This document shows positions 1,894 through 22,269 of a stretch of DNA of 64,000 nucleotides, piece by piece. The notes beneath the pieces are model-generated. The model did no database searches and was not told the origin of the DNA. It saw nothing but the letters and a program-made list of their open reading frames with translations. The number at the start of each line of letters is the position of its first letter. Within the stretch, counting starts at the first letter, position 1. The position numbers and the translations under genes are program-made. Source of the DNA: Candidatus Tectimicrobiota bacterium (GTDB lineage: Bacteria > JACPUC01); the NCBI GenBank assembly GCA_016192455.1, contig JACPUC010000002.1, positions 62,001-126,000 of the forward strand, read 5' to 3'.

Positions 1894-1914
1894 GAACCGC
1901 CAGAGGGCGATGAG

Positions 1915-2298
1915 ATGATGGGGAAGATGGGGAAAGAATCAGCTCGCAGCTCCAGTTCTGAAGGCACGGTCGAAGTGTTTCGTTTCGATCCCAAGGTCGA
2001 TGCGGCGCCCCGCTACGAGACGTTTCGCGTCCCTTACCCGGAGTGGAAGGACAAGAAGGTGCTCGAGGTGCTGCACTACATCTTTGAGCGCTTCGATGGC
2101 TCGCTCGCCATGGGTGAGTCCTGCACGGTGCAGCATTGCGGCAGTTGCGGCATCCGCATGAACGGGCGCTCCATCCTGGCCTGCGATGTGCCGGCGGAGG
2201 GGGCAATGAAGCTGGAACCCCTCTCCGTCAAGCGCGTGCTGAAGGACCTGCTCGTCGACCAGTCGTTCAGCTCCGAGGAAGAGGAGGTCGCCGAGTAG
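1915..2298 (+). CDS. short 2Fe-2S ferredoxin-like protein (SdhB N-domain type)
   Basis: This 127-residue protein corresponds only to the N-terminal plant-ferredoxin-like domain of SdhB/FrdB. Cysteines 70, 75, 78 and 90 in the pattern C-x4-C-x2-C-x11-C, with CGSC and a closing LAC, supply the 2Fe-2S ligands. The C-terminal domain that carries the 4Fe-4S and 3Fe-4S clusters in SdhB is absent: the protein ends after an acidic tail rich in Ser and Glu. It starts 21 bases after the flavoprotein stop and is almost certainly cotranscribed with it, forming a two-component flavoprotein/2Fe-2S oxidoreductase. A second ATG directly follows the first, so the exact start may move by one codon. Confidence 0.8.
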   Translation: MMGKMGKESARSSSSEGTVEVFRFDPKVDAAPRYETFRVPYPEWKDKKVLEVLHYIFERFDGSLAMGESCTVQHCGSCGIRMNGRSILACDVPAEGAMKLEPLSVKRVLKDLLVDQSFSSEEEEVAE

Positions 2299-2550
2299 GA
2301 GGCGGCGTCGTCCGCAGAGAACTCCTTGAGACAGTGCGTCGGCAAGCGAGCCGGTTGTGCCGCCGCCACGCCGGGGATTGGCGGGAAGGGCCGGCGGAAG
2401 GTCGGCGGCGCGGGGACGAGGCCGGGGGGAGAAGCGCCGGGGAGCCTGGGCGCGGCGGCGGCCGGCGGCTGGTCCAGGAAGGAAGCGGTTGGCTCACGGC
2501 AGGATCGGCGCGAGCCGCCGAGAGGTGAACCTTGTAAGAGGAGCAGGGCT

Positions 2551-3546
2551 ATGCGAAACGTGGTGAGATTCCTGGGGCTTGGAATTCTTGCGCTCGTTCT
2601 TGCAGCGGGGGCGATGCCGTCCTCGACGGCGCGGGCGGCGGGCGAGGTGCTGGTCGGGCATGTGGCCGGCGGCACCGGCGCGCTCTCGCCGATCGTCATC
2701 AAGCAGCAAAAGATGGCGGAGAAGAACGGGGTGACCATCACCTGGCGCGGCTTCGCCGATCCCGCTCCGCTGCACCAGGCCTTGCAGCTCGCCCAGATTC
2801 CGGTCTCCAGCACCACCGGCATCGACGCCATCATCCGCTCGATCAACGCCGGGCGCGAGCTGCAGATGGTCTACCCGCACATCCGCAACCACATGTCCGT
2901 CCTGGTGCGCAAGGATGCGCCCTACAAGTCGCTGGCCGACCTGAAAGGGAAGCGCCTCGGCATCTACACCTGGAATACCGGCTCGACGGCGACGCTGGTG
3001 AGCATCTACAAGAACCTCTACGGCCTCGACATGCGGAAAGATCTGCAGGTCATCGTGGCGAAGGGGCCCGCCATGCCGGGGCTCCTTGAGAAGGAGCAGT
3101 TAGAGGCCATTCACCTCTTCGAGCCGTTGCCGCTGAAGCTCGTTCTCTCAGGGAAGTTTCGCGTTCTCGTGGCAACGCGCGACGAGTGGCTGAAGGTGAA
3201 AGGCGGCGGAGAGCAGCTCTTCGCGGGCATCGCCGTCGACGCGAAGTGGGCGCGCGAAAACAGCGACACCTTGAAGCGCTTGGTGAAGACCTTCAAGGAG
3301 AGCTTCGAGTACATCAGGAGCCATCCCGACGTCTATGTGGAGACGGGGTTCATTGAACTGATCGGTTTGAAAGCGACCCCGGAGATCGTGCGCCTGTTCC
3401 AGGAGCGCATCACCCCGATCTTCCAGACGCAGTTCGATGTAGCCTTCATCAAGGCGCAGGACAAGTTCCTGCAGGACATGGTGGAGAACGAGATCGTCAC
3501 CAAGATTCCGCCAAACTGGTACTCGCTGGAGTACGCGCCGAAGTAA
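2551..3546 (+). CDS. ABC transporter solute-binding protein, NMT1/TAXI/SsuA-like, secreted
   Basis: From the ATG at 2551 the 331-residue product begins with a clear Sec signal peptide: MRN, a hydrophobic run to about residue 22, then an Ala-rich cleavage site ending ARA-AGE near 30-32. The start is chosen over an upstream in-frame ATG because the signal peptide begins here and an AGAGGAG ribosome site sits 5-12 bases upstream. The body has the two-lobe pattern of NMT1/SsuA binding proteins, including a YKSLADLKGKRLG-type segment and LLEKEQLEAI in the hinge region. It lies downstream of the flavoprotein and 2Fe-2S genes on the same strand. The likely permease and ATPase for it lie just beyond on the opposite strand. 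The ligand is unknown, perhaps an aromatic or sulfonate-type anion. Confidence 0.8.
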   Translation: MRNVVRFLGLGILALVLAAGAMPSSTARAAGEVLVGHVAGGTGALSPIVIKQQKMAEKNGVTITWRGFADPAPLHQALQLAQIPVSSTTGIDAIIRSINAGRELQMVYPHIRNHMSVLVRKDAPYKSLADLKGKRLGIYTWNTGSTATLVSIYKNLYGLDMRKDLQVIVAKGPAMPGLLEKEQLEAIHLFEPLPLKLVLSGKFRVLVATRDEWLKVKGGGEQLFAGIAVDAKWARENSDTLKRLVKTFKESFEYIRSHPDVYVETGFIELIGLKATPEIVRLFQERITPIFQTQFDVAFIKAQDKFLQDMVENEIVTKIPPNWYSLEYAPK

Positions 3547-3747
3547 CGGCTTGGACTCGGCATCCTCATCGGGGCGCCGTGGCCGCGGGGTTGGACGCGG
3601 CGCCTCCCTCCCTTTGCCTGCCGCCGTATCGCCTGCCGGCGGCGCGAGGCGGACGCTCCGCGCCCGCGTGCAGCGCCGCCTTTGAGCGCCGGCGCAGGAC
3701 GCAGCCTTCCTCAGATCCCCGCGGTCTTGTTCTGTGGGCTTCTCTTC

Positions 3748-4518
3748 TCAATCCGGCAGGATTTCCTCGACCAGGATGCGGCCGATCTCGGCTTCCAACT
3801 CCGTCAGCTCGCGGCTGGTGGTCGAGCGGGGGCGGGGGAGGGTGACGCGGATTTCCCGGTAGATCGAGGTCGGGCGGTTCGTCATCAGGAAGATGCGGTC
3901 GGCGAAGTAGACGGCCTCGCCGATGTTGTGGGTGACGAAGAGGATCGTCGGACGCGCCGCCTCGAGGAGGCGCACAAACTCACCGCGAATACGCATGGCG
4001 GTGATGGCATCGACGCTGTTGAGAGGCTCATCCATGAGGATGATCTGCGGGCTGATGATCAGGGCGCGGATGAGAGAGATGCGGCTCTGCATGCCGCCGG
4101 AGAGGCGCTGGGGGTAGGTGTCCTTGAAGGCGTAGAGGCCCACCATGTCCAGGTAGCGGCGGATGAGGGCGGCGCGCTCGGCGGCGGGAAGGCCGAGCGG
4201 CTTCAGCGTCAAGAGGAGGTTCTTCTCGACGGACATCCAATCGAGCAGGCGCGGCTCCTGAAAGACGTAGCCGATGCCGCTGGGCAGCGCCCGCGCGCCC
4301 GCCGTGATCTCCACATCGCCGATGACCACGCTCCCCTCGGTGGGGCTGAGGAGCCCGGCCACCACATTGAGCAAGGTTGACTTGCCGCACCCTGAAGGGC
4401 CGAGCAGACAGATAAACTCCCCCTCCTCGACGCTGGCGGTGATCTTATCCAGCACCGGCAGGCTGCCGCCCTCGGCGATCGGAAACTGCAGGCTCAAGCT
4501 TTGGAACGCTAGTCGCAT
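3748..4518 (-). CDS. ABC transporter ATP-binding protein (SsuB/TauB-like)
   Basis: A 256-residue ABC ATPase with Walker A GPSGCGKST at residues 40-48, a Q-loop FQEP near 87, the signature LSGGMQ at 139-144, and Walker B ILMDEP near 160, followed by the H-loop VTHN. The length and the sequence around Walker A fit the nitrate/sulfonate/taurine (SsuB/TauB) class. It lies 273 bases downstream of an SsuC-type permease on the same strand and converges with the binding protein that ends at 3546. Together these three make a complete importer, although the subunits are on two strands. The ATG at 4518 has only a weak purine-rich ribosome site. Confidence 0.88.
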   Translation of the reverse strand: MRLAFQSLSLQFPIAEGGSLPVLDKITASVEEGEFICLLGPSGCGKSTLLNVVAGLLSPTEGSVVIGDVEITAGARALPSGIGYVFQEPRLLDWMSVEKNLLLTLKPLGLPAAERAALIRRYLDMVGLYAFKDTYPQRLSGGMQSRISLIRALIISPQIILMDEPLNSVDAITAMRIRGEFVRLLEAARPTILFVTHNIGEAVYFADRIFLMTNRPTSIYREIRVTLPRPRSTTSRELTELEAEIGRILVEEILPD

Positions 4519-4791
4519 TGGTGTACGCCCGCCTCGCCTCTTCCAGGGTTGTCGCTAACCCACATCCTGCTCACCTTCGCCGCAGGGGTGCGCCACGCCG
4601 CGCCAGGTCGGCATTCGTCGCGCTTCTCGGAGATGTCTCGTCGCGGCAGCGCGGCGCCTGCCTCCCAGGACCCAGGTCGTTGGTGTGCCTGCGGCGCTGC
4701 CTGATTCACCCCCCTCTCCGCGCGACGCCCTCTGGAGCGACTCGGGATCAAACCGCGCCTCCCCATGAGGAAAGAGGTTGCTGAGGTTCGC

Positions 4792-5625
4792 CTAGAAGTT
4801 GATCTCCGGTCGCCACGCCAGCACCCGCCGTTCCAGAACCCGGATGACGCCGAACTCCATGACCGTCATGATCACCACGAGGATGAACGTCCAGGCAAAG
4901 ACATGGCTCATGGAGAGCAAGCCGAACCAGTACGCGAACTGGTAGCCGACGCCGTTGCTGGAGCCGAGCATCTCGACGACCACGGCGATCTTCCAGCAAA
5001 TGCCGATGCCGTAGCGCGAGGACGAGAAGACGTAGGGGAGGATCTGCGGCAGGATGACCCGCAGGAGGATGTCGGCGCGGCTTAAGCGGAACACCTTGGC
5101 CATATCGAGCAGCTTCGTATTGATGCTCTTCACACCGCCCCAGATGTTCACGGTGATGACCGGGAAGGAGGTGATGGCGATGGCGACGATCACCCCCGCC
5201 TCCGAGAGGCCGAAGATCATCAGGGTGATGATAGCCCAGACGAGGCTGGGGATGGTCAAACCGATGACGACCCAGAGGCTGAAGGTGCGCTCGAAGTATT
5301 GGCGCAGGCCCATGAGCGTGCCGAGGATCAGCCCGAGGATCTCGGCGATGAAGAAGCCGATGAAGAGCCGCATCAAGGTGAGGACGATGTGCACGTAGGT
5401 GTCGGGCTTCTGCAGTAACCCACCCAGCACAGTGAATGTTTGCAGAGGGGTTGCCAGGATGAACTGCGAGGGCAACAGCGCGGCAAGCAGCCACCAGGCC
5501 AGCAGCGCCCCCAGCACCGAGTACAGGTAAGGGAGGTAAGAGCCGACGCGGCGCCGCACCGCGCGGCTTGCCCGCGGAGCTGAACTGGCGATGACCGGCA
5601 GTTGCTGAACCTTCTCACTCTGCAT
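4792..5625 (-). CDS. ABC transporter permease (SsuC-like)
   Basis: A 277-residue integral membrane protein with about six hydrophobic helices and the binding-protein-dependent inner-membrane-component loop (a Gly-rich EAA-type stretch near the C-terminal third, around RADILLRVILP). This is the SsuC/TauC class. I place the start at the ATG at 5625 with a GGGGA purine tract upstream; a GTG at 5646 would add seven residues. A near-consensus promoter with a flanking inverted repeat lies about 210 bases upstream. It pairs with the ATPase downstream. Confidence 0.85.
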   Translation of the reverse strand: MQSEKVQQLPVIASSAPRASRAVRRRVGSYLPYLYSVLGALLAWWLLAALLPSQFILATPLQTFTVLGGLLQKPDTYVHIVLTLMRLFIGFFIAEILGLILGTLMGLRQYFERTFSLWVVIGLTIPSLVWAIITLMIFGLSEAGVIVAIAITSFPVITVNIWGGVKSINTKLLDMAKVFRLSRADILLRVILPQILPYVFSSSRYGIGICWKIAVVVEMLGSSNGVGYQFAYWFGLLSMSHVFAWTFILVVIMTVMEFGVIRVLERRVLAWRPEINF

Positions 5626-5834
5626 GGAGACGTCCCCAGCGCGCACGCTGAGCCGGAGCGCCGCCGCGCGCTCCCTCCCCCAGCCTCAGCCGTCCCTTCT
5701 GACGCCACCGAGAGACCAAAACCCCCCGCCTGCCACCCCATCAGTCTGGCTGGGAGGCAGCCTGCCTTCAACGGCCATCATCTGCTTCCTGGGATCAAGA
5801 CGGCGGGGTGGCGCGGCGCGCAGACATGGGCGCG

Positions 5835-5872
5835 AACCCTTGTACTGAATTTCGTTCATTGTGTCAAGGGTT
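5835..5872. repeat. 8-bp inverted repeat overlapping the permease promoter (candidate operator)
   Basis: AACCCTTG at 5835-5842 is matched by its exact reverse complement CAAGGGTT at 5865-5872. The two arms are 30 bp centre to centre, close to three helical turns. They overlap the -10 and -35 hexamers of the leftward promoter, the usual place for a repressor site. The DNA between the arms is AT-rich, unlike its surroundings. Confidence 0.5.
5839..5867 (-). promoter_or_regulatory. sigma70-type promoter for the SsuC/SsuB-type transporter genes
   Basis: On the minus strand a perfect -35 TTGACA (5867-5862) is followed after 17 bases by TACAAG (5844-5839), which matches four of six positions of TATAAT. 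Transcription would start near 5832 and leave a leader of about 200 bases before the permease ATG at 5625. Confidence 0.55.
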
Positions 5873-5943
5873 AAGGAGTGCTGCCGCAGCGGCGAAGCCG
5901 GACGGCAACGCCGCGACGGACAAGCTGCCGGCCGCTGCGCTGC

Positions 5944-6867
5944 TCACAGTATCTTGCGCAAGGGGATGATGCCGCGCTGGCGCAGCAACCCGAGGACACC
6001 ATTGGGCATGAGGAGGACGATGGTGACGATGAGGAGACCGAAGATCGACTGGTGCAGGAAGGGAAAGCGCACCCACACCAGCTCGGCGAAGATGGAGAGG
6101 ACCACGGCGCCGAGCACCGGGCCAAGCACCGTACCCTTCCCGCCGAAGAGCGTCATGATGATCATCTGGATGGTGGTGAGCACCGCAAAGCTGCTCTCGG
6201 GATCAATGAAACTTTGGTAGCGGGCGAAGAGCGCCCCCGCCAGGCCGGGGAAGAAGGCGCTGAGGATGAAGGCATAGACTTTCAGGCGTGTCGTATCAAT
6301 GCCCATCACCTCGGCGGCCACCTCATCTTCCCGGATGGCCATGAGGCGTAAGCCGAATTTCGAGCGGTTCAGGGAGCGGGCCGTGAGGACGACCGCCGCC
6401 GCGACTACCGCCATGGCGTAGTACATGATGCGGTTGTTCTCGATGGGGCGCAGGTAGAGACCGGTGGCGCCCTTGGTGATCCCCTCGAAGGCGAGGACAA
6501 GGATGCGCACAAGCTCGTTCACGGCGAGCATCGCAATGGCGAAGTAAGCGCCCCGCAGGCGCAGGCAGGGGTAACCGATGACCACCGCCAGGAGCGCCGC
6601 CCCCAGGCCCGCGAAGAGAACGGCCAGCGGCCAAGCCGTGCCGTGCGCCATGGCGATGCCGCCGACATAGGCGCCCACCCCGAAGAAGACGACGTGCCCG
6701 AACGAGACGTAGCCGACGTAGCCTGAGATGAGGTTCCAGCTCGAGGCCAGGCAGATGTACATGAAGATGATGAGCTGCAGGGTGGTGAGGTAGGCGGAGC
6801 TTACCCACGGCGCCAGAACGAGCCAGACGCCGACGACGACGAAGGTGGCGCAGAGGAGCGATTTCAC
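5944..6867 (-). CDS. livM: branched-chain amino acid ABC transporter permease, LivM type
   Basis: A 307-residue membrane protein with eight or more hydrophobic segments. The stretch SGYVGYVSFGHVVFFGVGAY near residues 48-67 is the hallmark of LivM permeases, and a cytoplasmic loop with LNRSKFGLRLMAIREDE follows at about 167-184. It starts with GTG at 6867, 24 bases after the livH stop, so the two permeases are cotranscribed. The usual ATPase genes livG and livF do not follow; an SsuC-type permease does. Confidence 0.88.
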   Translation of the reverse strand: MKSLLCATFVVVGVWLVLAPWVSSAYLTTLQLIIFMYICLASSWNLISGYVGYVSFGHVVFFGVGAYVGGIAMAHGTAWPLAVLFAGLGAALLAVVIGYPCLRLRGAYFAIAMLAVNELVRILVLAFEGITKGATGLYLRPIENNRIMYYAMAVVAAAVVLTARSLNRSKFGLRLMAIREDEVAAEVMGIDTTRLKVYAFILSAFFPGLAGALFARYQSFIDPESSFAVLTTIQMIIMTLFGGKGTVLGPVLGAVVLSIFAELVWVRFPFLHQSIFGLLIVTIVLLMPNGVLGLLRQRGIIPLRKIL

Positions 6868-6891
6868 GAGCCTCGCATTCCTCGCAGCGGC

Positions 6892-7761
6892 TCAGTTGGC
6901 CTCGGCTCGACCGAAGATGCCGCTCGGGCGGACGAGCAGGATGAAGACGAGGAGGCCATAGGCGACGGCCTCGGAGATATTCGAGGCGAGGTAGAGGGCC
7001 GCGAGCCCTTCCACAAGGCCCAGGATCAGCCCGCCAAGGAAAGCGCCGGAGTAGCTCCCCAGCCCGCCCAGGACGACGACGCAGAACGCCTTCAGGTTGA
7101 GGATGGCCCCCATCTCCGGGTGCATGGAGAACATGATGCTCATGAGCGAGCCGCCGGCCCCGGCCAGGGCGCAGCCGAAGCCGAAGGCGTAGCGATACAC
7201 TCGGTGCACGTCGATGCCGCACACCATCGCCACCTCACGGTGCTGCGAGGTGGCCCGAATGGCCATGCCCAGGCGGCTGTACCGCAGGTAGGCGAAGGCC
7301 CCGACGGTGATGGCGAGCGCGATGACGAAGCTCACCACGCGGGGGATCGAGAAGGCGATGCTCCCTAGGTAGAACGAGCCGGTCAGGTAGGGAACGGAGC
7401 GGTAGTCCGAGGTGAAAACATAGCGGATGGCATTGGTGAGGAAGATCGCGATGCCGAACGTGAGGAGCAGGGAGGAGAGCTCTGGGGCGTCGACGACATG
7501 CCGCACGACGTAGCGCTGCAAGAGGTAGCCGAAGCCGAACATCACGGGCATCGAGACGAAGAGCGATAGGAGCGGGTTGAAGCCGAGGAGCGTGAACAGC
7601 CAGTAGGTGATGTAGCTCCCCAGCACCAACAGCTCGCCATGCGCGATGTTGATGACGCGCATGACGCCGAAGATCATCGTCAGGCCAAGGGCCACGAGCG
7701 AGTAAATGCCGCCCACCAGCACCCCGCCGACGAGCACTTGCGTGAGGAGATGGAGATCCAC
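6892..7761 (-). CDS. livH: branched-chain amino acid ABC transporter permease, LivH type
   Basis: A 289-residue permease with the N-terminal GLTMIFGVMRVINIAHGE segment (residues 27-44) that defines LivH proteins, then alternating hydrophobic helices. The GTG start at 7761 has a good ribosome site (GGAGGGAG six bases upstream on the coding strand). It forms a permease dimer with LivM downstream and probably works with the periplasmic binding protein encoded 343 bases upstream. The substrate could be amino acids, amides, urea or small aromatics, all known for this family. Confidence 0.88.
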   Translation of the reverse strand: MDLHLLTQVLVGGVLVGGIYSLVALGLTMIFGVMRVINIAHGELLVLGSYITYWLFTLLGFNPLLSLFVSMPVMFGFGYLLQRYVVRHVVDAPELSSLLLTFGIAIFLTNAIRYVFTSDYRSVPYLTGSFYLGSIAFSIPRVVSFVIALAITVGAFAYLRYSRLGMAIRATSQHREVAMVCGIDVHRVYRYAFGFGCALAGAGGSLMSIMFSMHPEMGAILNLKAFCVVVLGGLGSYSGAFLGGLILGLVEGLAALYLASNISEAVAYGLLVFILLVRPSGIFGRAEAN

Positions 7762-8104
7762 GCGGCGCTCCCTCCAGGGCGCTCGGGCGTTTCGTGCTAC
7801 GTCTCAAAACTCACTGGCAAATTTGCTGCGTTGCAGGCTCCATTTTTTGTGGGGGACCCTTGCTCCCCCACACCCCCAGTGAGAGAGGAGCGAAGAGAAA
7901 GGGGAAAGGAGAATTCCGGTTGCTCTCTTTTCTCCTTTCACCTATCTCGCCGCCGCGCGGCTCCCTCGCACAAAAACTGCCTCAGGTTGGCGACGAGGCT
8001 CCCAATTTAGGTAACGAACTTAGGAGCCACCACAGAAGCAGGCGCGGCCGACGGCAGGTGCCCGGGACGGTCGGCCGCGCCAGCGTCAGCGCTGCAACGC
8101 CTGC
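7762..8104. other. gene-free spacer with a hairpin, between the Liv-type binding protein and livH
   Basis: No coding frame is convincing here. GTGGGGGA at 7849-7856 pairs with TCCCCCAC at 7864-7871 across a 7-base loop. The T run lies on the 5' side in the plus orientation, so it does not make an intrinsic terminator on either strand. It may act as an RNA-processing or attenuation element that separates high expression of the binding protein from the permeases, as is common in such operons (inference). Confidence 0.45.
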
Positions 8105-9289
8105 TCAGCGCAGGGGAATCCGCACCTGGGCGCTGGCCAGCGGCGCCGGCCAGATGATCTCCTTCTTACCATTCTGCCACTGGATGAGGATGGACTCATG
8201 CTCCATCTGCAGGCCGTCCGCGTTCACCCCATACTTGCCGAAGGGGGTTTCCAGCTTCATGCTCACGAGCTGCTGGCGGATCTTCTCCTGGTCCAGCGAG
8301 CCGGCGCGCCGCACCGCCTCCTCCAGCACGATCGCCGCGGCCACCGCGGAGCCGGTGTGGTAGTCAGGCTCGCGCTTGAACATCTCGGTGTAGGTGCGCA
8401 CGAAGTCGGCGTTCCCCTTCGTCTTCAAGGTGGGTTCCCATTGGGAGGGGCCGATGACGTTCTCGGCGATCGGTCCCAGGTTCTTGTAGAACTCCGGGGT
8501 GGCCGGGCCGACCGTGGCGGCGAAGAGCTTCGGTCGGACGTCGAGCTCCTTCATCTGCCGGGTGATCTGCTGCGAGTCGGGGGCGTAGGTGCCAGCCAAC
8601 AGGAGATCGGGGTTGCGCGCCTTGATCTTGCTCAGCAGCGCCACGAAGTCGGTGAGACCCTTGGGGTACGCCTCGCTGTGCACCACCGCGAGGCCCGCCT
8701 TCTTGGCTTGCTGCGTGGCGCCCAGCACGACCGACTTGGGGAAGAACGCATCCTCGTACATGAACGCCACGCTCTTGAAGCCCTTCTGCTTGGCGATGTC
8801 GATGACGCCATCGAAGTAGTTCTCGGCCGGCGTGTAGACCATGAAGACATACTTGAAGCCGCGCTTCCAGATCTCCGTGGAGGCGGCGCCGCCGGCCACC
8901 ATCGGCATCTTGTACTTCTCGCTCACGGTGCTGGCGACCGCCGTGACGCCGCTCGAGTACGGCCCCAGGATGAGATCGACCTTCTCCTGCGTGATGAGGC
9001 GCTCGTAGAGCTTCTTCGCATCCTGGCTGCTGCTCTTGTCGTCCAGGATGCGCAGCTCCACCTTGCGGCCGAGCAGCCCGCCGCGTTCATTCACCTTCGC
9101 CGCCCACCAGCGGTAGCCCTCTTCTTGATACTTGCCGGCACGTTCGTACTCGCCCGAGGCGGCGACCGTGGCGCCGACGACAATCGGCTTCTGGGCGACG
9201 GCCTGGGCGAGAGAAGCGTCGGGTGCGGCAAGAAGAGCGGCGCACGCTAGGAGCAGGGAGACAAGAGTAACCGGGGAGAGTCGCTTCAT
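8105..9289 (-). CDS. ABC transporter solute-binding protein, LivJ/LivK type
   Basis: A 394-residue periplasmic binding protein of the Peripla_BP_6 class. The ATG at 9289 is chosen because it directly opens a signal peptide (MKRLS, a hydrophobic core, cleavage after the ASLAQA region near residue 29) and has GGGAGGT nine bases upstream. Diagnostic segments are VVGATVAASGEY, the NERGGLLGR-type motif near residue 72 and a LILGPYSSG segment near 114. It heads the livH-livM operon. A promoter is visible about 150 bases upstream. Confidence 0.88.
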   Translation of the reverse strand: MKRLSPVTLVSLLLACAALLAAPDASLAQAVAQKPIVVGATVAASGEYERAGKYQEEGYRWWAAKVNERGGLLGRKVELRILDDKSSSQDAKKLYERLITQEKVDLILGPYSSGVTAVASTVSEKYKMPMVAGGAASTEIWKRGFKYVFMVYTPAENYFDGVIDIAKQKGFKSVAFMYEDAFFPKSVVLGATQQAKKAGLAVVHSEAYPKGLTDFVALLSKIKARNPDLLLAGTYAPDSQQITRQMKELDVRPKLFAATVGPATPEFYKNLGPIAENVIGPSQWEPTLKTKGNADFVRTYTEMFKREPDYHTGSAVAAAIVLEEAVRRAGSLDQEKIRQQLVSMKLETPFGKYGVNADGLQMEHESILIQWQNGKKEIIWPAPLASAQVRIPLR

Positions 9290-9437
9290 GGTTGCCGTAC
9301 CTCCCAACACGGGGGACCGGGTGCGCAGCTTTACCGATCCGCGCCATGCCAAAACTCCGCGGAAGCGACGCCGTGCCAGCGCGCCAGCCCGGCGCGCCGG
9401 CCCTGCCGCCACCGCCTCCGATCCTCGCCTTGCTGCG

Positions 9438-9466
9438 AGTCTAACCGGGCCTCGTCAGGTGGTCAA
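9438..9466 (-). promoter_or_regulatory. promoter for the Liv-type binding protein operon
   Basis: On the minus strand TTGACC (9466-9461) and TAGACT (9443-9438) are separated by 17 bases. They match five and four positions of the sigma70 consensus. The predicted start near 9431 gives a leader of about 140 bases. Confidence 0.45.
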
Positions 9467-9493
9467 GTGCTGGGCAGCTCCTCCCGGCAACGC

Positions 9494-9522
9494 TTCTCAT
9501 CTGCCTGGCCAGCAGGTATACT
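9494..9522 (+). promoter_or_regulatory. promoter for the first ubiD-family gene
   Basis: TTCTCA (9494-9499) and TATACT (9517-9522) are 17 bases apart and face right. They match four and five positions of the consensus. The predicted start near 9529 lies 60 bases before the ATG at 9589. Together with the promoter at 9438-9466 it makes a divergent promoter region. Confidence 0.4.
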
Positions 9523-9588
9523 GAGCGCTCTCACGTGAGTCGCTCCGCTTGCCCGACAGCCACGAGTCCTCTCAGGAACGGAACTCCC

Positions 9589-10995
9589 ATGGCAAAAGAC
9601 CTGCGCTCGTTTCTTGACGAACTGGCGCGCGTGGCGTCAGGAGACCTGCTGCGCATCGCCCGGCCCGTCATGCCGCACCAGTTCGAGGTGACCGCCATCC
9701 TCCAGCAGCTCGAGGACGGCGAGCGCTTCCCGCTGCTGCTCTTCGAGGCGCCGCGCAGTGTCGAGGGGCATCCCTGCCCGTTCCGCTTGGTGAGCAACGT
9801 CTTCGCCACGCGGGAGCGCTGCGCCCTGGCGCTGGGCCGCGAGGCGAGCCAGAGCAAACTGCCGCTGAGCCTCGAGTATGCCCGCCGCGAGCGCCGGCCG
9901 CTCTCCCCGATCACCATCCCCCCAGCGGACGCCCCGGTGAAAGAGGTGGTGCAAGAGGGCGAGGAGGCCGACCTGTCGATTTTTCCCATCGTGCGCCACC
10001 ACGCCATGGACGCCGGGCCGTACTTCGACATGGCCGTCGTCAACCGCGAGCCGCGGGAGGGGTTCTACAACAGCGCCTTCCAGCGCACCATGTACAAGGG
10101 GCCGCGGCGGCTCGGCATCCATCAGTCTCCCCGCCACAACTGGCAGATCGTGCGCTCTCTCGCCCGCCAGGGGAAGCGCGCGCCGATCATCGTCGTCGTC
10201 GGCCACCATCCGGCCTTCTACCTAGGCTGCCTCAACGTCGCCGCCTACGGGGTGGATGACTACGAGCTCATCGGCGGCATCATCGGCGAGCCGCTGCGGC
10301 TCACCCCCTCCGCCACCTGGGGCGAGGAGTTCCTCATCCCCGCCGACGCCGAGCTCGTCATCGAAGGGGATCTCGATCCCCAGGACCTCGAGGTGGAGGC
10401 GCCCTTCGGCGAGTTCACCGGCTACTACGGCCCGCAGCGCCTGCGGCCGGTGATCCACGTGACGGCCGTGAACCACCGCGCCGACGCCATCCTGCAACAC
10501 AACTTCGTGGGTCACCCCGACTGCTGGGTGCTCGGCGGCATTCCGAAAGAGGGGGCGATCTACAACCTTATCAAAGGCGTCGTTCCCGGCGTCACCGCGG
10601 TGCACCTCCCCCTCTCCGGGAGCTGCCGCTTCAACTGCTACATCAGCGTCGATAAGCGCGTCGACGGCGAGACTAAGCAGGCGGCGCTCCTGGCCCTCGG
10701 CGCGGTGGATTTCGTGAAGAACGTCATCGTCGTGGACGCGGACATCGATGTCTTCAACGAGCGCCAGGTGATGTTCGCGGTGGCGACGCGCACCCAGGCC
10801 GATCAGGATGTCGAGATCATCAAGAACGCCAAAGGGAACACCCTCGATCCCTCGCAGACGCACGACATCATGGGGAGCAAGCTCATCATCGACGCCACCA
10901 TGCCGCTTGACCGTCCCTTCGCGGAGCGCGTCGCGGTGCCGAAATTCGCCCTTGAGAAATTCCCCTTGGAGGAGTACTTCCCCGAGGAGGCGTGA
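9589..10995 (+). CDS. UbiD-family (prenylated-flavin) decarboxylase
   Basis: A 468-residue UbiD-family protein; members use prenylated FMN to decarboxylate (or carboxylate) aromatic and alpha,beta-unsaturated acids. The core motif EAPFGEFTGYYG near residues 270-281 is the family fingerprint, and it contains the conserved acidic residues of the active site. The LGAVDFVKNVIVVDADIDVF region near 372-391 matches the C-terminal half. The ATG at 9589 is preferred over a GTG at 9535 because the latter adds a non-conserved leader and lacks a ribosome site. No UbiX flavin prenyltransferase is encoded in the window, so the cofactor must come from elsewhere. It appears to be monocistronic and divergent from the Liv binding protein gene. 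Confidence 0.88.
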   Translation: MAKDLRSFLDELARVASGDLLRIARPVMPHQFEVTAILQQLEDGERFPLLLFEAPRSVEGHPCPFRLVSNVFATRERCALALGREASQSKLPLSLEYARRERRPLSPITIPPADAPVKEVVQEGEEADLSIFPIVRHHAMDAGPYFDMAVVNREPREGFYNSAFQRTMYKGPRRLGIHQSPRHNWQIVRSLARQGKRAPIIVVVGHHPAFYLGCLNVAAYGVDDYELIGGIIGEPLRLTPSATWGEEFLIPADAELVIEGDLDPQDLEVEAPFGEFTGYYGPQRLRPVIHVTAVNHRADAILQHNFVGHPDCWVLGGIPKEGAIYNLIKGVVPGVTAVHLPLSGSCRFNCYISVDKRVDGETKQAALLALGAVDFVKNVIVVDADIDVFNERQVMFAVATRTQADQDVEIIKNAKGNTLDPSQTHDIMGSKLIIDATMPLDRPFAERVAVPKFALEKFPLEEYFPEEA

Positions 10996-11169
10996 GCGCC
11001 GCGCGCGAGCCTCTAACGTCGTTGCGTCGTGACGGCTTGGGTGGCTGCCAGAGAAGGAGAAGTGTTAGGGGAACGAAGTGCGGCGGGCAGGCTGCCGGGA
11101 GGCGCGGGGTCGGCACGATGCCGCCTCGGTGCCTCCCGGGAACGACGCGAGCTGCAGCGTGCTGCGCAG

Positions 11170-11766
11170 CTACGGCAGGATGCCGACGACGGCGTACTCC
11201 GCCGGCCCGTTCGCCGGCTTCATGCCGATCACGACGACTTCCTGGCCCACTTTCAAGTCTTCCTTTTTTGCCGACGTCAGGCGGGTGATGACGGCCTTTT
11301 CGGGAATCTCCACGGTCTCCGACTTGTCTTTGTACTTGACAACGATGTCGTGCCCCATCCCCTTCTTCATGATCGAGGCGACGGCGGCGTTGGTCATCAT
11401 GTTCCCGCCGTAGAAGGGGAATTGCCCTTCAGCCCGGCCGCGCATGTCCTCGGGGAAGACGTGCACCATGGAGGCCGACATCATGCCGCCGCCCATGCGC
11501 TTGCCGGTGATGCCGATGTAGTCGTTCGGCTTCAGGTCGTTGAAGCTGATCGGCGCGTAGCGTCTGACGCCCAGCTTGGCGAGCGGCACCGTCGTCAGCT
11601 CGCCGTCGGGGGTCTTCACCGTCACGCCTTTCTCCGCCACCGCCGTGATCATGCCGCGAGCGCTCAGGCGCTGCGCCCCGGGAGCCGCACCCTGTGCCGT
11701 GGCGACAGCGCTGCTCGCCAGCAGCACGAAGACGATGAGCAATCCTCTTGCAACGCGATGTTTCAT
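11170..11766 (-). CDS. secreted beta-rich protein of unknown function (DUF5666-like)
   Basis: A 198-residue protein with a signal peptide (MKHR, hydrophobic core to about residue 21, cleavage near TAQG at 23-26). The mature part has two similar beta-rich modules: one with GMITAVAEKGVTVKTPDG near 38-55, the other with KYKDKSETVEIPEKAVITRL near 144-163 followed by LKVGQEVVVIG. This pattern recalls DUF5666 or OB-like modules in exported proteins. Met-rich stretches (GGGMMSASMVHV, NMMTNAAVASIMKKGMG) could suggest metal contact, but that is inference. AAAGGGGGAA lies about five bases before the ATG. It converges with the ubiD-family gene. Confidence 0.7.
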   Translation of the reverse strand: MKHRVARGLLIVFVLLASSAVATAQGAAPGAQRLSARGMITAVAEKGVTVKTPDGELTTVPLAKLGVRRYAPISFNDLKPNDYIGITGKRMGGGMMSASMVHVFPEDMRGRAEGQFPFYGGNMMTNAAVASIMKKGMGHDIVVKYKDKSETVEIPEKAVITRLTSAKKEDLKVGQEVVVIGMKPANGPAEYAVVGILP

Positions 11767-12089
11767 CGGTGTTCCCCCTTTCGCAGGTTCTTCTGGTGAG
11801 TATTCCTCTCAGGGCGCGGCCTGGGCGGCGCCCTGCGTTCTTGCGAATGTCAGGCAATCATAGTCAATTCCGAAGCTGGGCGCTATGCTCTTGGGGGCAC
11901 GAGCGCGAGGCTTGACCTCCGTGCGGGGCGGATGATCGGGAGCAGGGCGAGGGCGGTGCGCTCGCGCCCTTCACCTGCCCTTTGCGCCGGCGGTTCGTCC
12001 TTGACTTCGCCGCGGGCGCGAACCACCATCAATGGCGGAGCGGGTGTGACAGGCGGAGGCGGTGCGACGCTACAGAGGAGCGACGGGGC
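11767..12089. other. divergent intergenic region upstream of the ETF-QO gene
   Basis: These 323 bases hold no gene I can support. An AT-richer patch lies near 11850-11885, with TTGACT on the minus strand, but no -10 at proper spacing, so I do not call a promoter. Confidence 0.4.
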
Positions 12090-13802
12090 GTGAGCGTGCC
12101 GGCAGACGCAGAGGAAGAACGGGAAAGCCTGGACCTTGATGTCCTGTTCGTTGGAGCCGGGCCGGCGACCCTCGCCGGAGCTCTCCATCTCAGCAACCTG
12201 ATCGCCCGTCACAACGACAGCGTCGGCGCCGGCGGCAGGCGGCTCGAGGCGCCGGCGATCGCGGTCATCGAGAAAGGCGCGGCGCTGGGGAACCACAGCC
12301 TCTCAGGCGCCGTCATGAACCCCGTGGCGCTGCGCGAGCTGATGCCCGATTTCCTCCAGCGCGGCGCCCCCCTCGACCACGAAGTCACCGAGGACGCCGT
12401 CTACTTCCTGACCGAGCGCCAGGCCCTGAAGCTGCCGATCACCCCTCCGCCGATGCGCAACCACGGCAACTACGTGGTCTCGCTCAACAGGCTGGTGAAG
12501 TGGCTGGGCGAGCAGGTGGAGGCCGCGGGGGCGGACGTGTTCCCCGGGTTTGCCGGCGTCCAGGTCCTTTACGAAGGCGAGCGCGTCGTCGGCGTGCGCA
12601 CCGGGGATAAGGGTATCGATGCCCAGGGGCGGCGCCGCAGCAACTTCGAGCCCGGCATCGACCTAAAAGCGAAGGTCACCGTCTTCGGCGAGGGGGCGCG
12701 GGGCTCGCTGACGAAAGAGCTGGTGAAACGGTTGGCGCTTGATTCAGGCAGCAGCCCGCAGCTTTACGCCACGGGAGTGAAGGAGGTGTGGGAGGTGCCG
12801 GCCGCCCGCACCAAGCCGGGGCGCGTCCTGCACACGCTCGGCTACCCGCTCCAGCGCGAAACCTTCGGTGGCGGCTTCCTTTACACGATGGCGCAGAACC
12901 TTGTGAGCGTGGGGTTCGTCGTCGGTCTCGACTATGCCGATCCCTTCCTCGATCCCCATGCCGAGCTGCAGCGGTTCAAGCTGCACCCCCTGGTCGCCAC
13001 CCTCCTGCGCGACGGCAAGATGCTCCACTACGGCGCCAAGACCATCCCCGAGGGGGGCTACTACTCGATCCCCCGGCTGACCTGTGCCGGCGGTCTCCTG
13101 GTAGGAGACTCGGCCGGCCTCGTCAACGTGCCGCGGCTGAAGGGCATCCACTACGCCATGAAGTCGGGCATGCTGGCGGCGGAGACGATCCTCGATGGGC
13201 TGCTGGCGGATGATTTCAGCGCCGCCGCGCTCGGCCGGTATGAGACGGCGCTGCGCGCCAGCTACGTGGGGCGGGACCTCTACGCCATGCGGCATTTCCG
13301 GCAGGCCTTCGAGGGCGGACTCTGGTCGGGGATGCTGAAGTCGGGACTCATCTTCGCCACGGCCGGCCGCTGGCCGTTCAAACGGCGGCAACCCCTGGAG
13401 GATCACCGCCATCTCCGCAAGCTTGCGGGGCGTGCCGCAGGCCGGCAGGCGCCGGCGGACGGCAAGGGGCTGCGCTTCGACGATCAGCTCACCTTCGCCA
13501 AGCTGACCGATGTCTACCACTCCGGCACCACGCACGAGGAGAACCAGCCGGCCCATCTCCTGGTGCCCGATCGCCGGCTCTGCAGCACCAAGTGCCGGGA
13601 GGAGTACGGCAATCCCTGCCAGTTCTTCTGCCCGGCGCAGGTCTACGAGATGGAAGCCGATGAGGCTGGGGGCGGCAACCACCTGAAGCTGAACCCCAGC
13701 AACTGCGTGCACTGCAAGACCTGCGACATCAAGGACCCCTACGGCAACATCACCTGGGTTCCACCCGAAGGCGGCGGCGGACCGGTGTATACGAATCTCT
13801 GA
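12090..13802 (+). CDS. electron transfer flavoprotein-ubiquinone oxidoreductase
   Basis: A 570-residue ETF-QO, which passes electrons from reduced ETF to the quinone pool. The GTG at 12090 is chosen because GAGGAG lies nine bases upstream and because it gives a normal family length. The FAD loop reads GAGPAT at residues 22-27, where most homologues have GAGPAG. The middle carries the GGYYSIPRL and GDSAGLVNVPRLKGIHYAMKSG segments typical of the family. The C-terminus has the ferredoxin-like 4Fe-4S motif (CPAQVYE, then CVHCKTC in the last 35 residues). No etfAB or acyl-CoA dehydrogenase gene is nearby, so its partner is encoded elsewhere. Confidence 0.92.
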   Translation: MSVPADAEEERESLDLDVLFVGAGPATLAGALHLSNLIARHNDSVGAGGRRLEAPAIAVIEKGAALGNHSLSGAVMNPVALRELMPDFLQRGAPLDHEVTEDAVYFLTERQALKLPITPPPMRNHGNYVVSLNRLVKWLGEQVEAAGADVFPGFAGVQVLYEGERVVGVRTGDKGIDAQGRRRSNFEPGIDLKAKVTVFGEGARGSLTKELVKRLALDSGSSPQLYATGVKEVWEVPAARTKPGRVLHTLGYPLQRETFGGGFLYTMAQNLVSVGFVVGLDYADPFLDPHAELQRFKLHPLVATLLRDGKMLHYGAKTIPEGGYYSIPRLTCAGGLLVGDSAGLVNVPRLKGIHYAMKSGMLAAETILDGLLADDFSAAALGRYETALRASYVGRDLYAMRHFRQAFEGGLWSGMLKSGLIFATAGRWPFKRRQPLEDHRHLRKLAGRAAGRQAPADGKGLRFDDQLTFAKLTDVYHSGTTHEENQPAHLLVPDRRLCSTKCREEYGNPCQFFCPAQVYEMEADEAGGGNHLKLNPSNCVHCKTCDIKDPYGNITWVPPEGGGGPVYTNL

Positions 13803-17703: not shown

Positions 17704-17856
17704 CCTCGTCAAAGGCTGCAGAGAGCCGTGTTTATCCATGGATGGGACTTGAACCTGCTCCCAGTTCTGTTGTAAGCTTGAACGTAGGTTGGAGCATTTT
17801 GGCAGCCCTGCATGCTGGAGTGAGAGGAAGTTCTTCCCTCAACGTGACTGTCCAAT

Positions 17857-19064
17857 ATGGCCCAGTTTATTAAATCATTGAAACTTACCAATCTTCTCTC
17901 ATTTGGTCCAAAGGGCTGTTCCCTTGAGCTCAGACCTCTGACCGTGCTCATCGGTCCGAATGGGGCTGGAAAGTCGAACCTGATTGAAGCGATAAGCTTA
18001 CTTCAGGCAGCGCCGAGTGACTTACAACGCCATGTTCGAGAAGGTGGCGGAGTTCGGGAGTGGTTGTGGAAAGGGAATGAGGGGAATCCCGAAGCTTCCA
18101 TCGAAGCAGTCGTCGAGTACCCGTTTGGAACTATGCCGTTGCGCTATTGCCTGTCGTTTTCACACATGGCGAACCTGTTCTATATTTCAAACGAACGGCT
18201 TGAAAATGAACAATCATTGTCTGGCCAACCAGGACCTTACTTGTTTTTCGGATACGAGCGAGGAAGACCAATGCTTAGTGCCCGGGGGTCGTATATTGAG
18301 CCCCCTTATTATAAAGGCCGTGTGACGATAGAGCTGAACCAGGAGGACTATAGTCGTTTTCAATCTGTCCTCTCCCAGCGGAAAGACCCGACTCATTTTC
18401 CAGAGATCACATACCTGGGATATAAGTTTGGCCAGATACACTTTTATCGAGTATTGAACTTTGGACCATACACTCCTGGTTGTTTACCGCAAGCAGTGGA
18501 TGCGAGGGGGGGGCATTGGAGGAAAACTTTTCCAACCTGGCTATTGTTCTCAACGCCCTTAAGCTTAAAGGAGACGCCTTCCAACAAATTAAGGACAAGA
18601 TACGTGAGGTGTCTGATCAGTTCATTGACTTGGATACTATTGTCGATGGTGGACGTGTTCAGGTATATCTGAAAGAGAAAGGTCTTACATCACTTGTCCC
18701 AGCTACGCGCCTTTCAGATGGAACGATCCGGTACCTCTGCTTGTTGGCCATTCTCTGTCACCCCGAACCGCCACCGCTCATTTGCCTGGAAGAGCCGGAG
18801 CTAGGGCTGCATCCCGAAGTCATTGCGAGCGTGGCCAAGTTGCTGCGGGAAGCCGCGCAGCGCACGCAAATCATCGTTACGACGCACTCGGTTGAGCTGG
18901 TGGATGCGCTGACAGAGGAGCCGGAGGCCGTGGTGGTCTGCGAGCGTGAGGCTGAAGGGACTACCTTCCGGCGGCTCGAACGCTCATCGCTCTCTGAGTG
19001 GTTGGAAAAGTACACCCTCGGCGAGCTGTGGCAGAAAGGCGAAATTGGGGGTACGCGTTGGTAG
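17857..19064 (+). pseudogene. AAA ATPase (RecF/OLD-like), frameshifted
   Basis: The first part (17857-18513, frame 1) has an SMC/RecF-type N-terminus with Walker A GPNGAGKSN at residues 33-41. The second part, in frame 3 to 19064, holds an ABC-like signature region (RLSDGTIRYL), Walker B CLEEPELGLHPE and a switch TTHS. Both belong to one AAA_21/AAA_15 ATPase of about 400 residues. The frame changes at a run of eight G (18506-18513). One missing G explains it, so this is either a true inactivating deletion or a homopolymer error in the sequence. The gene is AT-rich compared with its neighbours, a sign of transfer. It overlaps the DUF4276 gene by a few bases, as in known two-gene operons. Confidence 0.75.
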
Positions 19065-19626
19065 GGAGCATCCGCATTTACTTTGAAGGCGATAGGCAGT
19101 TACGCCGAGGTTTTACTGCATTCTTTCGAGCTATTGAGCCAAAACCAAAAGTCGTCGCAGGCGGTTCACAAGCCTTGCAAGATTTCTTTCATGCACTTCG
19201 TATCCACCCTGGTAGCTTTATTATCTTGCTTGTTGACGCCGAAGGACCTATTCAAGAGGCCTGGAATCGGTTGGGGGTCGTAGCGATTGGAAAAAATCCG
19301 CTGCAAGTAAAGATCAGGTCTATTTCATGACGCAGTGTATGGAGGCATGGTTTGTTGCAGATATTGATGCACTGATGAAATACTATGGGCAGCAGTTCAA
19401 CCACAAGATCCTTCCACAGAATCCTGCCGTTGAATCGGTGCCAAAGAAAGACATTTTCAACGGCTTGGCTTCTGCGATTCGAACTACGAAAAAAGAAAAG
19501 TACCATAAGACACGCCACGCCCCCGATCTTCTTGAACTCCTCAACCCGGAGGTCGTGCGACAAAAGGCACCACAATGTAATCTACTCTTCCAGAAACTTG
19601 AAGAGTTAACCGCTGGCAATAGTTAA
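19058..19626 (+). pseudogene. DUF4276-family protein, frameshifted
   Basis: From a TTG at 19058 overlapping the ATPase stop, the product would start LVGSIRIYFEGD and continue through FIILLVDAEGPIQEAW, then in another frame YFMTQCMEAWFVADIDAL and KGKR-like basic segments to 19626. This is the DUF4276 pattern, which includes acidic EGD and DAE motifs reminiscent of TOPRIM-type nucleases (inference). The frame shifts by one base in or near a GGGGG run at 19272-19276, so the gene is broken in this sequence. DUF4276 proteins are often encoded directly after AAA_21 ATPases, and such pairs are suspected antiviral modules. Confidence 0.7.
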
Positions 19627-19711
19627 CTGCGTTAGGTATAGCAAAGTTGGCGGGCTTGATGGCTGACCCGCATCTTGCCTGGTGAAGAGCAACGTTTGCT
19701 CTCTTTCCCGG

Positions 19712-21952
19712 TTATGCTCCGCCCTTTCTACTCCGTACTCCCTCCCGCACGCGTTCCGGTGACAGCGGCAGCGACACCATCCGCAGCCCGGTGGCGTCGA
19801 AGAGGGCGTTGGCGATGGCGGCGGCGACGGGCACGACCGGCGGCTCGCCGATGCTCTTGGCGCCGTAGGGACCCGCGCCGGGGTAGCCCTCGACCAGCCG
19901 GGCCTCGATGCGCGGCAGGTCGAGGGCCATGGGGATCTTGTAGTCGAGGAAGTTGGGGTTCAGCACCCGGCCGTCGCGCAGGCACATCTCCTCGGCGAGG
20001 GCGAACCCGATCCCCTGGGCCACGCCGCCTTCAACTTGGCCGCCAGCGGTGGCGGGGTTGAGGGTGGTGCCCAGATCGTGGGCGGCGAGGTAGCGCAGCA
20101 CCGCGACCTGCCCGGTCTCCTCATCCACCTCGACCTCGGCGAAGTGGGCCGCGAAGACGGGGCCGGCCGGCGCCCCCGCCACGAACGAGCCGCGGCCGAG
20201 GATCGGCCCGCCGAGCTTGCGCAGCGCGGCAGCGGCAAGCTCCCTCACGCTGATGCCGCGATCCGGCGCCTCGGCCACGGAGACGCGGCCGTCGCTGAGC
20301 CGCAGGTCTTCCTCGGCGGCCTCGAGGAGCGGCGCGGCGAGGGCGAGGAGCTGCGCCCGCACGTCGCGCGCCGCGCGCAGAACGGCGTTGCCGGCGACAT
20401 ACGTCTCGCGGCTGCCGCCGCTGCCCGAGTCGTAGGGGGTATGGGCCGTATCGCGGCTGCTCACGGTCACGTCGGTGATCGCCAGCCCCAGCTCCTGGGC
20501 GACGATTTGCGCCAGGATCGTATCGGTGCCGGTGCCGACGTCCACGGCGCCGGTGAGAAGGTTCGCCGTGCCGTCGTGATTCAGCGTCACGAGCGCGCCG
20601 GCCGAGCCGGGGGCGGTGCTGCGCTCGCTGCACGCCATGCCGAGGCCCCGCAGCTTCTCCTGCCGCGGCTGGCGGGGACGTTTCCAGCCGAAGGCGGCGG
20701 CCCCCTCTTCCAAGAGTTTCCTGAAGCCGACCCCTTTCCAGATCACGCCGACGGCGTTCGCCTCGCCGTCGCGGGGGGCGTTGCGCAGGCGCAACTCGAG
20801 GGGGTCGAGGCGCAGGGCATGGGCGATGATGTCGAGCTGCGATTCGCTTGCGAAGGTGACCTGGGGATCGCCAGGAGCACGGCACTGCCCGCCCGGAATC
20901 TTGTTCGTGTAGACGCAGAACGCCTCGATGCGCGCGTGGGGGATGGCGTAGGGGCCAAGGGCGCGGCGCCAGCCGAGGGGGAGGGCGCTGGGTTTCTGCC
21001 CGGCGTTGGCGCCGGTATCGAAGATCACCGTGGCCTGGCGCGCCATGATGGCGCCGTCGTCGCGCACCCCGGTCTTCAGGACGATGCGGCTGGCGTTGCG
21101 CGGGCAGGCGGCCTCGAACTCCTCCTCGCGGCTCATCACCAGGCGCACCGGGCGGCCGCCGCTGCGCTGCGAGAGGAGGGCGCAGAGCGGCTCGTCCATG
21201 AGGTACCCTTTGGCGCCGAAGCCGCCGCCGCAGTACGTGCCGATCACCCGCAGGCGCGCGAGGGGCCAGCCCAGCACCTTCGCCAGGGCCTCGCGGATGA
21301 AGTGCGGGCTCTGGGTGCTTGTCCAGACGGTCAGCCAGCCGGTCGGGTCGAGCTGCGCCACCGAGGCGTGCGGCTCGACGTGCCCGTGATGCACCATGGG
21401 GGTGGTGAAGGTGTGCTCGAAGAGGTGCGCGGCCTGGGCGAACCCTGCCTCGGTGCTCCCCTTCGTCGCCAGCTCCTGCGAGCAGACGTTCGGCAGCGTG
21501 CTCGGGTGCAGGAGCCCCCCGTAGGTTGCCAGCTCCTCATGGAGGATCGGCGCCCCGGGCGACATGGCAGCGAGAGGATCGAAGACGGCGGGGATCTCCT
21601 CATACTCGACCTCGATGAGGGCCAGGGCTTCCGCCACGGCGTCGGCATCGGCGGCCGCCACCGCCGCCACGCGGTCGCCGCGGAAGAGCACTTTCCGGCG
21701 GGCCAGGGTCTCCATATCCTCGAGGAGCCGGCCATGGCGCGTCGCCGGGACATCCGCGGCGCTGAGCACGGCGTGCACGCCCGGCGCCTCGCGGGCCCTG
21801 CTGGTGTCCACGTGGAGGATGCGGGCATGCGCCAGCGGGCTGCGCAGAATGCCCCCCTGCAGCATGCCGGGGAGGCGGATATCGACGCCGAAGCGCGCCG
21901 AGCCCGACACCTGGGATCGCGCATCAATGCGTGGAAGTGCCGCTCCTATCAC
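19712..21952 (-). CDS. xanthine dehydrogenase-family molybdopterin-binding large subunit
   Basis: A 746-residue molybdenum hydroxylase large subunit (CoxL/XdhB/aldehyde oxidase superfamily). Start GTG at 21952 has GGAGGGG about eight bases upstream; longer versions add only Arg/Pro-rich sequence. The Ald_Xan_dh_C N-domain begins VSGSARFGVDI and LRSPLAHARI. The Moco domain has GGGFGAKGYL near residue 240, GTGTDTILAQI near 480 and a C-terminal GAKSIGEPP with the conserved Glu that acts as catalytic base. The usual partners, a small 2Fe-2S subunit and a medium FAD subunit, are not encoded nearby. The substrate is unknown. It lies on the edge of the AT-rich island, convergent with it. Confidence 0.88.
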   Translation of the reverse strand: MIGAALPRIDARSQVSGSARFGVDIRLPGMLQGGILRSPLAHARILHVDTSRAREAPGVHAVLSAADVPATRHGRLLEDMETLARRKVLFRGDRVAAVAAADADAVAEALALIEVEYEEIPAVFDPLAAMSPGAPILHEELATYGGLLHPSTLPNVCSQELATKGSTEAGFAQAAHLFEHTFTTPMVHHGHVEPHASVAQLDPTGWLTVWTSTQSPHFIREALAKVLGWPLARLRVIGTYCGGGFGAKGYLMDEPLCALLSQRSGGRPVRLVMSREEEFEAACPRNASRIVLKTGVRDDGAIMARQATVIFDTGANAGQKPSALPLGWRRALGPYAIPHARIEAFCVYTNKIPGGQCRAPGDPQVTFASESQLDIIAHALRLDPLELRLRNAPRDGEANAVGVIWKGVGFRKLLEEGAAAFGWKRPRQPRQEKLRGLGMACSERSTAPGSAGALVTLNHDGTANLLTGAVDVGTGTDTILAQIVAQELGLAITDVTVSSRDTAHTPYDSGSGGSRETYVAGNAVLRAARDVRAQLLALAAPLLEAAEEDLRLSDGRVSVAEAPDRGISVRELAAAALRKLGGPILGRGSFVAGAPAGPVFAAHFAEVEVDEETGQVAVLRYLAAHDLGTTLNPATAGGQVEGGVAQGIGFALAEEMCLRDGRVLNPNFLDYKIPMALDLPRIEARLVEGYPGAGPYGAKSIGEPPVVPVAAAIANALFDATGLRMVSLPLSPERVREGVRSRKGGA

Positions 21953-22269
21953 CGTTGTGCCCCCTCCAAGCGCTGCATGTGGTTCCTCCCCGGCAACGAC
22001 GGGAGAACGCCATCCTAGCGCACTCGGTCGCGGACCGGCAAGCGCGGCGGGCGCGGGGCGGCGGCGCGACTGTCGCGGCGCGGCGGGCCGCAGGGCGGGC
22101 ACGGGGTGCGGCGAGGAGGAGCCGGCGCGGCGCCTCAATGGTGATCAGGGGGGCCGGGGCGCTCTCGCGCGGCGCGCGAACCGCCGCGGCTGGCTGCGCC
22201 TTTACATCTCCACCTGCCTTTTCTATATTCACTGCACCGTTCCGGCCTTGGTTCCATGATGGAGTGGTG
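21953..22269. other. divergent intergenic region between the molybdopterin subunit and the DUF3090 gene
   Basis: No gene is seen in these 317 bases apart from a rightward promoter at 22201-22229. The left two thirds is very GC-rich. Confidence 0.5.
22201..22229 (+). promoter_or_regulatory. sigma70-type promoter for the DUF3090/SCO1664 operon
   Basis: TTTACA (22201-22206) and TATATT (22224-22229) are separated by exactly 17 bases, each matching five of six consensus positions. The predicted start near 22236 leaves a leader of about 34 bases before the ATG at 22270. It sits in the only AT-rich stretch of the spacer. Confidence 0.55.

Follow-up and report, generated by a model that had tools for sequence, protein, structure and literature searches.

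A 64-kb stretch of DNA from a Candidatus Tectimicrobiota bacterium (contig JACPUC010000002.1; hereafter 'the window') contains an AT-rich island with two overlapping genes whose sequences place them in HEC-01, a catalogued candidate defence system, of which they form a broken, stand-alone copy. We estimate a probability of roughly 0.7 that this pair is a PARIS-like cassette, in which an ATPase sensor and a TOPRIM nuclease would bring about abortive infection, and that the cassette was acquired horizontally and is now inactive in this genome.

An overlapping ATPase–DUF4276 pair in an AT-rich island

The island occupies positions 17704–19711 of the window, between a matrixin-like gene and a gene for a molybdopterin-binding dehydrogenase, with a GC content of 50% versus 67%. 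The gene pair within it lies at 17857–19626, as a preliminary description of this DNA had correctly reported, and has 50.1% GC compared with 67.4% for the window outside the island, which bears out the earlier remark that its base composition is unlike that of its flanks. Among non-overlapping stretches of 1770 bp, none elsewhere in the window has so little GC. This low GC content fits horizontal acquisition. No flanking direct repeats or tRNA that might mark integration were found around the island, and a scan of it for promoters and terminators gave no more signals than chance. A xanthine-dehydrogenase-like gene adjoins both the window pair (window positions 19712–22138) and the pair at a homologous locus, L002 (5897–11144), where it is followed by a gene for AllH (oxamate carbamoyltransferase), although this could be coincidence. 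The window has a second GC dip (~50% GC) at 38245–39033 (+), an isolated 262-amino-acid ORF whose start resembles a SAM-dependent methyltransferase (LDIGCWSGTY) and which has no Pfam match at 1e-5.

The upstream gene (17857–19064, + strand) encodes an ABC-type, SMC/RecF/OLD-like ATPase (Pfam AAA_21) and is broken, with its N-terminal half in an ORF at 17857–18672 (+) and its C-terminal half in another at 18480–19064 (+). The downstream gene (19058–19626, +), also broken, encodes a DUF4276 protein, a putative TOPRIM-fold nuclease. Its TTG start codon is at 19058 and the TAG stop codon of the ATPase gene at 19062–19064, so that the two genes overlap by 7 nt on the same strand, an overlap also found in the intact pair at locus L003.

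When we searched the PADLOC profiles, the two halves of the ATPase matched positions 1–213 (6.7e-67) and 211–393 (6.1e-86) of the HEC-01A model (PDLC04177), and the DUF4276 gene, read in two frames, matched positions 3–82 (8.9e-12) and 87–199 (3.3e-33) of the HEC-01B model (PDLC04201) as well as Pfam PF14103 (2.7e-13). Both HEC-01 models were matched over nearly their whole length, and the genes are adjacent and co-directional, with the order, strand and short overlap of the intact pair at L003. The window copy differs in being broken in both genes and in standing alone rather than inside another system. The overlapping pair noticed earlier is therefore confirmed, but the suggestion that it might belong to an undescribed system is not, because PADLOC-DB v2 (2023) contains a model made for each of the two proteins.

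The name HEC abbreviates 'Hma-embedded candidate' (PMC12988326, PMC10855318). These candidates were identified through 'guilt-by-embedding' in a screen by Payne et al. (preprint 10.1101/2024.01.29.577857, as cited in PMC12255303), and activity is attributed to HEC-06 and to others among them (PMC12988326). Our literature search for experiments on HEC-01 or DUF4276/PF14103 found no report, and an earlier TOPRIM assignment of DUF4276 may exist. An intact homologue, at L044, is 57% identical to the C-terminal half of the window ATPase. The window's own genome has another, more distant HEC-01A-like ATPase with one in-frame TGA (L145; G000 C7:110226–111416); no second copy of HEC-01B was found in that genome, only distant ATPases. 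A DNA search of 98 genomes returned, besides the window itself, only two short, distant matches.

Lesions in both genes

The matches to the two ATPase halves meet at ~18510–18516, on a run of eight G residues (18506–18513, +) that is one of only two G/C runs of at least 8 in the 64-kb window. Because the HEC-01A profile positions run across this break without loss between the halves, the break amounts to a clean change of frame, and the Walker A, signature (LSDGT), Walker B and H-loop motifs are all still encoded, across two frames. In the DUF4276 gene the HEC-01B matches meet at ~19270–19273, placing a second frame change at ~19270–19284 (+), at or beside a G5 run (19273–19277); thus neither HEC-01 protein has an open frame. 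This gene has in addition an incomplete version of the putative metal-site loop (19085–19096, +), which reads E-G-x-x-(E/D) in homologues and is gap-free in the other DUF4276 members compared: in the window, YFEG is followed by DRQLRRGF, with ~7 residues after E-G gone. Both genes are broken, as first proposed, and calling them decayed is fair if mild decay is meant, since the damage comes to a frame change in each gene plus one short in-frame loss, and the ATPase motifs are intact. Among 57 ATPase columns that are 95% conserved, the window copy deviates at 5 (including W to L and R to P in REWSFGR), compared with 0–4 in 19 homologues; its DUF4276 protein deviates at 5 of 40 conserved columns, with 3 gaps, and one divergent homologue does so at 8 of 30. 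We take these departures as a mild sign of relaxed constraint.

The location of the two frame changes, in or next to G runs, and the absence of any loss of profile positions over the ATPase break would also suit assembly errors in those runs, with both genes whole in the organism. We consider this improbable. We applied codon-model segmentation to 44 other coding segments (48 kb) around the island, which hold 127 G/C runs of at least 5, 8 of at least 7 and one other of 8, and no frame break emerged, making random sequencing error an unlikely cause; moreover, such errors would leave aside the residues missing from the metal-site loop and an ATPase that departs from conserved columns more often than each of the 19 homologues. 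It is far less probable still, and in our judgment very improbable, that slippage in the G8 tract switches a phase-variable defence system on and off. The tract is a plausible site of slippage in an ATPase frame that is undamaged elsewhere, but it is not conserved, as aligned homologues carry different residues there (LPNEH, LPNNF or LPTDR), and turning only the ATPase back on could not revive a system whose DUF4276 gene is separately broken and has lost a motif. We prefer the reading that the lesions are genuine and that the window copy has probably lost its function. Other broken copies of the pair are not rare, and include one with stops (L083), one with a transposase between the genes (L106) and one that is truncated (L004). 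The transposase-like ORFs between the HEC-01A and HEC-01B genes of L106 (6721–9630) are repeated elsewhere in that locus.

A predicted TOPRIM-like fold for DUF4276 and an ABC-type ATPase

We predicted the structure of DUF4276 from four intact homologues (pLDDT 82.9). The best match of the model was the C-terminal domain of an OLD nuclease (6nk8; Z 9.5 over 166 residues, 4.0 Å), followed by other OLD structures (6njv, 6njw and 6njx; Z 8.5–8.7) and by the PARIS protein AriB (8ux9, Z 8.3; 8v46, Z 7.3), with lower matches to 2p62 (Z 6.5) and retron Eco2 (Z 5.2) and an unrelated background of at most 5.0. Foldseek ranked the same OLD domain at the top, albeit with an E value of only 0.0099, and a PDB sequence search with DUF4276 gave nothing significant. 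We regard the structural match as good, although not overwhelming. Judged by these models, DUF4276 has a TOPRIM-like fold that is closest to the OLD nucleases and to AriB, in keeping with the TOPRIM-like effector proposed in the preliminary description.

The alignments begin with residue 1 of the model opposite residues 392 of OLD and 18 of AriB, and if they are ungapped through the first strand, E9 of DUF4276 would fall on OLD E400 and AriB E26. OLD E400 is an active-site residue for metal A (PMC7049728), and AriB E26 is an active-site residue whose mutation abolishes tRNA cleavage (PMC12409363). Across 36 DUF4276 members, E9 is present in 35/35, an acid at position 13 in 30/35, D72 and E112 each in 36/36 and K168 in 34/36. 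The TOPRIM signature of a first-strand Glu and a downstream Asp is thereby conserved in the family, from which metal binding is predicted. The effector had also been described as acidic, yet the DUF4276 proteins of the window's subfamily are basic, with a pI of 8.2–9.4.

The predicted model of the ATPase has a low overall confidence (pLDDT 60.2) but a clear SMC/Rad50/PtuA-type head (Z 16–19.5). The earlier assignment to an OLD/RecF-type ATPase is thus right as to the SMC/RecF/OLD-like ABC head and wrong as to AAA+: the protein is an ABC-type (RecF/SMC) ATPase, and 'AAA' is only a database label.

The resemblance to PARIS that had been pointed out is likewise partial. The pair shares with PARIS (AriA and AriB) its two-gene layout of an ABC ATPase and a TOPRIM-fold protein, as well as the alignment of the DUF4276 model with AriB. 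AriA models match the window's ATPase at 4.1e-24 for the C-terminal half, far more weakly than HEC-01A does. DUF4276 proteins are, however, only ~200 amino acids long, as opposed to ~305 residues for AriB. By sequence the pair is not PARIS, because no AriB model matches it: HEC-01B models alone match the DUF4276 pieces of the window and the intact proteins of L003, L002 and L044. OLD family nucleases (class 1 and class 2) similarly combine an SMC/RecF-type ABC ATPase with a TOPRIM domain carrying ExxxE/D and D motifs, but do so in one chain, whereas HEC-01 has separate genes and a shorter ATPase. In WonAB of Vibrio cholerae, too, a small nuclease is paired with an OLD-like ABC ATPase. There the ATPase controls the nuclease, and infection is aborted by translation inhibition (PMC12137116); WonB, unlike DUF4276, has a PD-(D/E)xK motif rather than a TOPRIM domain.

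HEC-01 pairs within and outside defence operons

The cassette is widespread in bacteria. Of 386 diverse genomes, 57 have DUF4276 above the curated cut-off, and a search of 398 genomes from one phylum found HEC-01B in 26. The ATPase gene is directly upstream of the DUF4276 gene in nearly all of 40 loci, the exceptions being contig edges, broken copies and L106. Pairs on plasmids were found through the ATPase; tblastn of phages and plasmids with DUF4276 gave no match.

Several intact pairs are nested in other defence systems. Two lie in BREX, one flanked by BrxC and PglX and accompanied by an Abi_C gene (L003) and one between BrxC and a PglX/methyltransferase gene, followed by HEC-02A (L044). 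Others lie between the mod and res genes of type III systems (L041, L108 and L150) or inside type I restriction-modification (RM) systems (L104, L115 and L155), and the last of these, on a Meiothermus taiwanensis plasmid, unites DUF4433 and macro-domain (DarTG-like) genes with the HEC-01 pair in one type I RM operon (1380–13237). Pairs are also found beside AbiE (L107) and beside helicase, methyltransferase or Mrr genes (L151 and L152). On a Nostoc plasmid (L154, 53–10217), a HEC-01 pair is near an operon encoding a Piwi-domain protein and a PD-(D/E)XK nuclease. Altogether, restriction, methyltransferase or nuclease genes neighbour six of the eight annotated plasmid pairs (L041, L042, L043, L150, L151, L152, L154 and L155) and are missing around the other two.

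Most sampled chromosomal pairs are solitary among housekeeping genes. Among 20 diverse loci, RM- or Abi-type neighbours occur within about three genes in 4 (5 if a HEC-05-like gene in L112 is included), and at 20 random control loci, mostly from the same genomes, none of the 25 listed families (out of 47) was of RM, BREX or Abi type. The resulting excess (one-sided Fisher test, calculated by hand: p ~0.05 for 4/20 to ~0.02 for 5/20) is only suggestive. At 20 loci of the window's subfamily RM was found in none, and the neighbours matched SoFic, HEC-05, HEC-09 and a few others just once each. Enrichment near defence genes, the check proposed for this candidate, is accordingly borne out by intact pairs nested in BREX and RM operons but not by the mostly solitary chromosomal copies or by the subfamily, and we consider the defence-island enrichment of HEC-01 pairs only moderate.

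Proposed function of the pair

In the mechanism that we propose, the window's genome would have acquired a HEC-01 cassette horizontally, and the cassette would now be inactive. In intact relatives, the upstream SMC/RecF/OLD-type ABC ATPase most likely senses infection or keeps its partner inactive, and DUF4276 would be a TOPRIM-fold, metal-dependent nuclease that is released or activated. Once active, it would stop phage growth by cutting nucleic acid, be it host tRNA, other RNA or DNA, as PARIS and split OLD systems do.

The same architecture could serve a toxin–antitoxin or general mobile-element stability module that is not directed against phages, with the ATPase restraining a toxic nuclease. 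Such restraint has a counterpart in PARIS itself, whose ATPase likewise restrains its nuclease (PMC12409363), and it would suit the many pairs that lie outside defence islands and the common solitary ones, including some on plasmids (L042 and L043). Repeated nesting in RM and BREX operons, sometimes together with DarT/macro genes (L155), Abi_C (L003) or AbiE (L107), is instead the behaviour of defence genes, and we judge a pure stability role to have a small chance of being correct, well below that of the abortive-infection mechanism.

The copy in the AT-rich island is a dead and unremarkable example of a type of system that has been catalogued but little studied, and the value of this otherwise ordinary locus is as a lead to the TOPRIM assignment of DUF4276. 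We tentatively suggest, as an idea with somewhat less than even odds, that DUF4276, formally a domain of 'unknown function', is a large branch of TOPRIM nucleases, and that HEC-01 is a PARIS-like abortive-infection family, mostly solitary outside defence islands, that RM and BREX operons have repeatedly taken up as a back-up acting upon their inhibition. Intact copies on named plasmids of Aeromonas veronii (pHX3), Meiothermus taiwanensis and Ideonella make these ideas directly testable, and a TOPRIM-like DUF4276 protein encoded beside an ABC ATPase predicts that the family may work by a PARIS-like nuclease mechanism.
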